64,000 bases of DNA from positions 1-64,000 of the forward strand of contig NZ_JAVBHX010000008.1 in the NCBI RefSeq assembly GCF_030732065.1, in the 5' to 3' direction. This stretch comes from Oceanimonas aquatica. Lineage in GTDB: Bacteria > Pseudomonadota > Gammaproteobacteria > Enterobacterales > Aeromonadaceae. The position numbers and the translations under genes were made by a program. Positions 41,899 through 43,747 of the stretch are shown here, piece by piece (position 1 is the first letter of the stretch; every line of letters begins with the position of its first letter). Below the pieces are notes generated by a model. The model saw only the letters and a program-made list of their open reading frames with translations. It made no database searches and was not told the DNA's origin.

Positions 41899-42456
41899 TT
41901 ACCTGTGCCGTCTGCGTCCGTCCCGATGACGTCCCTGCTCCGCCCGCTGGCGGCCTTGGTCGGCCCGGTGACGGCTCTGCTCTGCCATTACGATGGGGGC
42001 AAACTCCCGCAAAACCCGTCGATATACTTCCCGCTTAAAAGACACCACCTGACGTACCGGATACCAATAGCTGACCCAGCGCCAGTCATCAAATTCCGGG
42101 TGCCCGTGGCAGCCGAATTCGATGTGTGATTCATGATCCGAGTCCAATCGCAGCAAAAACCATTTCTGCTTCTGGCCGATGCAGACAGGGTTGCTGTCCC
42201 ATCGCACCAACCGCTTGGGCAGCTTGTACTTGAGCCAGTGACGGGTTACCGCCAGCTGAGTCACGTTCTCGGGTTTGAGCCCGATTTCCTCGTACAACTC
42301 CCGGTACATGGCCTGCTCGGGGGTCTCCCCATCGTCCACGCCCCCTTGGGGAAACTGCCAGGAATGCTGACCATAGCGCCTGGCCCACAATACCTGGCCT
42401 TTGCGATTGCAGATCACTATGCCTACATTGGGACGAAATCCGTCGCCATCTATCAC
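41899..42456 (-). CDS. rppH: RNA pyrophosphohydrolase
   Basis: Removes pyrophosphate from triphosphorylated mRNA 5' ends, starting decay. 185 residues; Nudix box at 38-60 ([23 protein letters not shown]). The tail after residue 155 is Arg/His-rich with a repeated pattern ([19 protein letters not shown]), unlike E. coli RppH, and could aid RNA binding. It is the first gene of the rppH-ptsP-lgt-thyA operon. Confidence 0.95.
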
Positions 42457-42623
42457 GCAATCACCAGACTAAAAGCTAACATGCTATCGATTGTTCCATA
42501 TTCCCCCATTTCCGGCAAATCAAGCCTGTACTTAGTGCTGTCTCCTTCGACCTGAATAACTCGATGTTTTGTCAACACTTATAAACAAAAAAGCTGACTC
42601 CCGACCCCGTTTCCCCCAGAAGG

Positions 42624-42967
42624 TGTGGATAATACTGTGATAAAAGCGGTATAGGCCGTATTCTGTCGTTAATCCGCACAGGGTAAAGGATGTGATCTGA
42701 TTCAAGTTAAAAAATAAAATCACATAATAAACAACAATATAAAAGTTAAAGAAAGGATCGAACTGGATCTTTGATCAGGTTGATCAACACCTGCGATGAT
42801 GTTGATAAGTCACTCCGCTCAAGAATCCATCACTGCCTTGTTATCCACAGCCCCGAACAGGATCCCGTTGATCCTTTTCCAAAAATTTTCGGTTTTTTCA
42901 CCTTTAGGCCAGGATCATGAGACAGCGAAGCAGCAGGGATCCAGTTATCCAGTTTTTCTGTGGATAA
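42624..42967. promoter_or_regulatory. DnaA-box and GATC cluster upstream of mutH
   Basis: The gap 42457-43069 has no gene. It holds three perfect 9-base DnaA boxes: TGTGGATAA at 42624, TTATCCACA at 42841 and TGTGGATAA at 42959. Weaker boxes lie at 42800 (one mismatch) and 42945 (TTATCCAGT), the latter facing the 42959 box. GATC occurs at 42694, 42756, 42766, 42773, 42782, 42861, 42870, 42913, 42938 and 43011, ten in 321 bases against about one expected. An AT-rich stretch (42698-42754) adjoins. E. coli has the DnaA-reactivating element DARS2 beside mutH, so a DARS2-like site is the favoured reading; oriC-like density is the alternative. Confidence 0.7.
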
Positions 42968-43069
42968 GCTTGTGCAACGGCATGTTCATACTTGAGTAAA
43001 ACGGGTATATGATCGTCCGCCGCCCCATTCCTTCAGGCACAGGCCCACTCCACGAAAGGTGATTGAATT

Positions 43070-43747
43070 TTGAACAACCCCATTTCCCGCCCCGACAGTG
43101 TCGCCGCCCTGCTGGAACATGCTCAGCAACTGGCCGGTCTGCCACTCACGGAACTGGCCCGTGAGCTGGGCCTGCCGGTGCCGGCCAACCTGCGCCGGGA
43201 CAAGGGCTGGATCGGCCAGTTGCTGGAGCTGACCCTGGGCGCCAGTGCCGGCTCCAAACCCGAGCAAGACTTTCCCGAGCTGGGTGTCGAACTCAAGACC
43301 CTTCCCCTGGACTCAAACGCCCGACCGCTGGAAACCACCTTTGTGTGCGTGGCCCCTCTGCTCGATATCGCCGGCCTGACCTGGGAATCCAGCAATGTGC
43401 GCAACAAACTGTCCCGGGTATTGTGGGTGCCGGTGATTGGCGAGCGGGACACGCCCCCCGGCGAGCGGCTGATTGGCCAGCCGTTGTTATGGACGCCGAG
43501 TGAAGAAGAGGAATGGCTGCTGCGTCAGGACTGGGAAGAGATCATGGAGCTGATAAGCCTGGGCCGGGTGCAGGATATCACCGCCCGCCACGGCCAGGCG
43601 CTGCAACTGCGCCCCAAGGCCGCCAACGGCCGCGCCCTGACCGACGCCATCGGCCCCGACGGCGGCTACATACAAACCCGCCCCCGCGGTTTTTACCTGA
43701 AAACCGGCTTTACCAAAGCCCTGCTGGCCCGCCACTTTATGCTTTAA
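43070..43747 (+). CDS. mutH: Methyl-directed mismatch repair endonuclease MutH
   Basis: Nicks the unmethylated strand at hemimethylated GATC when activated by MutS-MutL. 225 residues; catalytic Asp67, Glu74 and Lys76 in [10 protein letters not shown] have E. coli spacing, and the [17 protein letters not shown] end is conserved. Starts with TTG after an AAAGG site. The presence of MutH implies a Dam-type GATC methylase in the genome. Confidence 0.96.

Follow-up and report, generated by a model that had tools for sequence, protein, structure and literature searches.

A GATC-rich DARS2 orthologue between rppH and mutH of Oceanimonas aquatica

RESULTS

Gene Context and DnaA Boxes of the rppH-mutH Gap

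DARS2 is a DNA site that recharges the replication initiator DnaA. In positions 1-64,000 of contig NZ_JAVBHX010000008.1 of Oceanimonas aquatica (the 64-kb stretch of DNA that was analyzed, hereafter the window), the divergent genes rppH and mutH enclose a gap at the position expected of DARS2. The left-hand product has a NUDIX Pfam match, and E. coli DARS2 has the same neighbor; the right-hand product matches Pfam MutH (1.8e-35) and is 90% identical to MutH of O. marisflavi. The order thyA-lgt-ptsP-rppH, gap, mutH of E. coli MG1655 matches that of the window. The features are listed below, with E. coli box names beyond I-III being tentative here.

41899-42456, minus strand: rppH (NUDIX, RNA pyrophosphohydrolase), left flank
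42579-42587, plus strand: weak DnaA box TTATAAACA, near-invariant over the aligned orders (column identity 0.98 in the Oceanimonas group)
42610-42618, plus strand: core A box I TTTCCCCCA, degenerate, two mismatches
42624-42632, minus strand: core A box II TTATCCACA, perfect; 14-bp step from box I as in E. coli DARS2
42636-42644, minus strand: core A box III TTTATCACA, one mismatch; 12-bp step from box II as in E. coli
42694-43014: cluster of ten GATC sites in 321 bp, unmatched in density elsewhere in the window
about 42700-42755: AT-rich segment, predicted IHF position
42756-42785: GATC sites at 42756, 42766, 42773 and 42782
42800-42808, minus strand: weak DnaA box TTATCAACA (column identity 0.82)
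42841-42849, plus strand: middle box TTATCCACA (column identity 1.0), probably E. coli box V
42945-42979: core B, a second DARS-core-like triplet of TTATCCAGT (plus), TTATCCACA (minus) and CGTTGCACA (minus), with the same 14- and 12-bp steps
42985-43013, plus strand: possible mutH promoter, TTCATA-17-TATGAT
43070-43747, plus strand: mutH, right flank

A first-pass annotation of this DNA had reported three perfect DnaA boxes together with weaker ones in a gene-free gap. We located the copies of TTATCCACA at 42624 (minus), 42841 (plus) and 42959 (minus), which are the sole perfect copies in the 64-kb window, and six boxes with one mismatch to TTWTNCACA at 42579, 42636, 42800, 42875, 42894 and 42993. 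The span that had been given to the feature, 42624-43014, holds boxes and GATC sites as claimed but begins too far to the right: the conserved features start upstream of it, with the weak box at 42579 and core box I at 42610.

Boxes I and II of core A lie head to head with box III beside box II, the three starting at 42610, 42624 and 42636. The whole core (42610-42644) reads TTTCCCCCA-5-TGTGGATAA-3-TGTGATAAA, and the E. coli DARS2 core, which was placed via published deletion primers (PMC4585315), reads TTATTCACC-5-TGTGGATAG-3-TGTGAAGAA, with identical steps. Downstream, the high-affinity boxes at 42841 and 42959 are in register with their E. coli counterparts, being 118 bp apart as compared with 119 bp. 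The distance from the core to the middle box is 231 bp in 17 of 17 Oceanimonas-group gaps, 233 bp in Aeromonas and 217 bp in Vibrio, as opposed to 211 bp in E. coli DARS2 and most enterics.

Conservation of the Gap across Orders

The anatomy of the gap was read from an alignment of 24 sequences from several orders, in which the weak box TTATAAACA, core A, the AT-rich segment, the middle box and the mutH-proximal triplet are in register, a pattern kept in Aeromonas, Enterobacterales, Vibrio and Shewanella. The DnaA boxes are the best-conserved columns of the gap, at 0.98-1.0 compared with 0.60 overall in the Oceanimonas group. The first-pass annotation had staked its reading on the boxes recurring in relatives, and they are conserved in the Oceanimonas group, in Aeromonas and in other orders. 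A motif around GATTGTTCCATATTC (42489-42507), upstream of rppH, is also kept in all aligned orders and is perhaps the rppH promoter or leader; the conservation of the motif beside rppH is 0.96. A search of 42300-43200 against Rfam returned no RNA family.

Conservation of DARS2 as far as Vibrio cholerae and Shewanella has already been published (PMC8682772, PMC4245941). The Oceanimonas DARS2 is a further member of this set, in an order without coverage in accessible texts, and a literature text search for reactivating sequence together with Aeromonas gave no match. Some lineages seem to have lost DARS2: the rppH-mutH gap contains no DARS2 in Tolumonas (n = 4) and Idiomarina/Aliidiomarina (n = 2), where it is merely 155-231 bp, or in Bowmanella (n = 3), where it is long and without boxes. 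As a negative control, the mutH upstream regions of 40 further gammaproteobacterial genomes (rppH was detected beside mutH in one) contained no core-like triplet.

The AT-rich Segment and the Location of oriC

DnaA boxes, AT-rich DNA and a GATC cluster are shared with oriC, and the adjacency of these elements (some of the boxes perfect), together with an oriC-like right edge, led us to suspect a relocated or secondary oriC that would unwind at the AT-rich stretch. GC skew, which the first-pass annotation had suggested for finding oriC, was computed on the 64-kb window and 94 kb of a second contig (C2). Within the window the skew stays negative to the left and right of the gap, with no turn, whereas on C2 the cumulative curve turns near 88-90 kb, at mioC-mnmG, where the gap carries three consensus DnaA boxes and 14 GATC sites in 321 bp. 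The oriC of this genome is mioC-mnmG, and the rppH-mutH gap, which has neither the skew turn nor the gene context of an origin and aligns with the genome's own oriC over no more than 13 bp, is not an origin. Against these findings and the orthology to DARS2, we regard an origin here as hardly credible. The start of the mnmG coding region beside oriC (C2, about 88.2-89.3 kb) is likewise GATC-dense, with up to 16 sites per 600 bp.

The AT-rich stretch itself, already remarked on in the first reading of the sequence, lines up with the part of DARS2 that binds IHF, so that it most likely represents the IHF region, with no need for an unwinding element. Matches to the IHF consensus in the window are weak, with two mismatches each, at 42718 and 42729. 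Relatives carry one-mismatch or perfect matches at a fixed offset of +120 from the core; the best IHF-like motif lies at +120 in most Oceanimonas-group genomes and is perfect in several Zobellella and one Oceanisphaera. In E. coli the consensus matches have offsets of +94 and +110, leaving 3 bp between them, which is the published spacing of IBS1 and IBS2 (PMC4245941). The +120 motif of the Oceanimonas group and IBS2 at +110 are approximately one helical turn apart. A Fis consensus scan gave one perfect match at 42649-42663, outside the expected place, and the consensus is too loose to position FBS2-3.

Identity of the Element

The gap and E. coli DARS2 have in common the gene position, the steps of core boxes I-III, a predicted IHF region that separates the core from the middle box, the middle box and the mutH-proximal boxes; the enteric block AGTCAAGGCTGTAAAT of DARS2 was not seen in the Oceanimonas gap. 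Because synteny, core geometry, the offset of the IHF region and the multi-order alignment agree, the earlier suggestion of a DARS2-like locus beside mutH holds up well, and we consider it very probable that the gap is a DARS2 orthologue acting in DnaA reactivation. DnaA of this genome is 82% identical to E. coli DnaA with a nearly unchanged C-terminal region, and the genes for Fis, IHF-alpha, SeqA and Dam are present.

A locus with many boxes, several of them perfect, could instead serve chiefly as a sink that titrates DnaA without nucleotide exchange, and the middle and right parts of E. coli DARS2 are among the strongest DnaA ChIP peaks (199- and 213-fold, PMC11317965). A simple sink, however, needs neither a fixed head-to-head geometry nor a fixed spacing to an IHF position, and we think this role unlikely.

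Box I counts against the DARS2 reading: at E. coli DARS2 it is reportedly essential to the release of ADP (PMC4585315), and here it has two mismatches, being TTTCCCCCA as compared with TTATTCACC in E. coli. The weak IHF motif of this genome and the lack of a position for FBS2-3 count against it as well. Box I is TTTCCCCCA or TTGCCCCCA in most Oceanimonas, Zobellella and Oceanisphaera genomes, off-consensus but conserved. Its conservation is 0.90 as opposed to 0.46 for the adjoining 5-bp spacer, and the weak or altered box looks as though it were kept on purpose.

A Second Core-like Triplet beside mutH

Triplets of the core geometry occur in the 64-kb window at cores A and B alone, both inside the gap, and the scan of 94 kb of C2 for core triplets found none. 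A stringent core pattern gave exactly two matches in the O. aquatica genome, DARS1 and 42945, and the reversed control pattern gave none. The DARS1 orthologue, TTATCCACCATTTCTGTGGATAAGGGTGTGGATTG at C12:145324-145358, lies about 460 bp upstream of uvrB; it has the same head-to-head triplet with equal steps, and core B is 84% like this core over 31 bp. DARS1 differs in being a separate locus with a single GATC in 630 bp.

Core B is roughly GTTATCC-N6/7-CTGTGGATAA-N3-TGTG in most DARS2-bearing lineages, with Vibrio as the exception. The mean mismatches to the box consensus for cores A and B are 3.3 and 3.0 in the Oceanimonas group, 5.4 and 3.3 in Aeromonas, 4.0 and 3.5 in Shewanella, 3.0 and 4.8 in Enterobacterales, and 2.0 and 7.0 in Vibrio, where core B is effectively lost. 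In Aeromonadales, whose core A has a degenerate box I, core B equals or beats core A in its match to the DnaA-box consensus, and core B is nearer consensus in Oceanimonas than in E. coli DARS2. One enterobacterial genome has an rppH-mutH gap of 1134 bp with about 400 extra bases, yet keeps the two cores intact at a distance of 316 bp.

The boxes might mainly regulate the divergent rppH and mutH promoters, with DnaA as a transcription factor, for which the promoter-like mutH site just to the right of core B and the strong conservation of the motif beside rppH could be cited. The promoter-like match does not exceed chance expectation (one found compared with 1.1 expected in shuffles), and the head-to-head core geometry is that of DARS1 and DARS2. 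Furthermore, cores A and B keep a distance of 333-338 bp in Aeromonadales, whereas core B lies anywhere between 125 and about 240 bp from mutH, an argument for placing core B with the element rather than with the mutH promoter alone. We therefore hold a mainly promoter-directed role to be quite unlikely.

Core B is bound by DnaA in vivo in E. coli, where its counterpart lies at about 2969451-2969485 of NC_000913.3 and where the strongest DnaA ChIP-seq peak of DARS2 has the core B boxes as its double box (213-fold compared with 78-fold at the core A peak, PMC11317965); nucleotide exchange at core B is a proposal only. E. coli boxes IV-VI are dispensable in a plasmid assay (PMC4245941), and deletion of the core A boxes only gives a DARS2 phenotype (PMC4585315), so core B alone is insufficient in E. 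coli. That core B is kept in several orders suggests a function that awaits discovery.

GATC Sites in the Gap and Its Relatives

The ten GATC sites in 321 bases that had been counted in the first-pass annotation span exactly 42694 to 43014, and the runner-up cluster of this length elsewhere in the window has seven. The departure from E. coli DARS2 that was noted there also stands, the E. coli gap having 2 sites as opposed to 10. Shuffles, flanks and AT-rich windows served as controls. Dinucleotide shuffles predict 3.1 sites in the gap, and 0 of 200 reached ten. The whole window is GATC-rich, however (370 sites compared with about 217 expected), and for this reason the excess of the single gap is merely modest: after scaling for the richness of the window, 4.8 sites are expected (P about 0.025).

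The excess recurs in 12 Aeromonas genomes and in 16 relatives from the Oceanimonas group, giving 29 Aeromonadales genomes that share it, and this recurrence is stronger evidence than the single-gap statistic. The gap has an observed/expected ratio of 3.5 in the Oceanimonas group (flanks 1.7) and 3.8 in Aeromonas (flanks 1.5), a group-level excess beyond flanks of 2.1- and 2.5-fold, respectively, and, taken one by one, almost all Oceanimonas-group gaps and all Aeromonas gaps are over-enriched. The ratio is 2.0 in enterics (flank 1.4) and 0.4 in Shewanella (flank 1.15), whose DARS2 gaps (n = 10) hold 0-2 sites, below expectation and the opposite of Aeromonadales. Relatives share a dense cluster of the kind looked for at SeqA-sequestered loci, with most positions turning over. 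Of the ten sites, five occur in the O. aquatica genome alone, the sites at 42756 and 42766 are kept in 16 of 17 and 17 of 17 Oceanimonas-group genomes, and several Aeromonas sites are kept in 9-12 of 12. That the count stays high while most positions turn over is suggestive of selection for density, alongside which mutational explanations remain.

Elsewhere in the genome, the dnaA upstream region has nine GATC sites within 271 bp. The cluster in the gap is weaker than that of the genome's own oriC and similar in density to this dnaA region, which is without DARS triplets. The dnaA promoter is SeqA-regulated in E. coli.

DISCUSSION

The rppH-mutH gap of O. aquatica aligns with DARS2 of several orders, and its GATC excess and its second core-like triplet look to be the two less-known aspects. 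In the mechanism that we infer, the head-to-head boxes of core A, and perhaps those of core B, would be occupied by ADP-DnaA, and the AT-rich DNA that separates core A from the middle box would be bent by IHF. Contact between DnaA molecules would release ADP, upon which apo-DnaA could take up ATP and regain initiation competence. The Aeromonadales element departs from the usual form in having a degenerate box I in core A, a well-kept core B and GATC sites dense around the IHF position. After passage of the fork, hemimethylated GATC sites may bind SeqA, which would keep IHF and DnaA off briefly and delay DARS2 activity.

IHF sites in oriC contain GATC, and SeqA may time IHF there, as has been discussed (PMC10380432). 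Since seqA and dam are present, timing by SeqA and Dam at the Aeromonadales DARS2 would be a plausible extension from oriC, to which we give somewhat less than an even chance. The odds seem to us about equal that the element is DARS2 and its GATC cluster a by-product of genome-wide GATC enrichment with no timing role. The 1.7-fold GATC richness of the window and the modest corrected P value fit such a by-product, as do the sites unique to O. aquatica and the near absence of GATC from Shewanella DARS2. The enrichment beyond flanks in both groups speaks against it, as do the retention of the two sites beside the IHF position and of several in Aeromonas, and the single GATC in the genome's own DARS1 region.

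A further model is that the Aeromonadales DARS2 is a two-core, SeqA-gated element, in which core B would be the main site of ADP-DnaA exchange, core A would be weakened, and the GATC sites around the IHF site would delay reactivation until the freshly replicated locus is remethylated. We regard this model as doubtful; if true, such an element ties the DnaA clock to fork passage.

DARS2 helps to set the time at which DnaA is recharged, and hence the time of chromosome replication. The timing of IHF at E. coli DARS2 has been described as unknown (PMC10380432), and a naturally GATC-rich DARS2 orthologue is a direct test case for timing by methylation. With its abundance of GATC and its well-kept second core, the Oceanimonas DARS2 may be regulated differently from that of E. 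coli.
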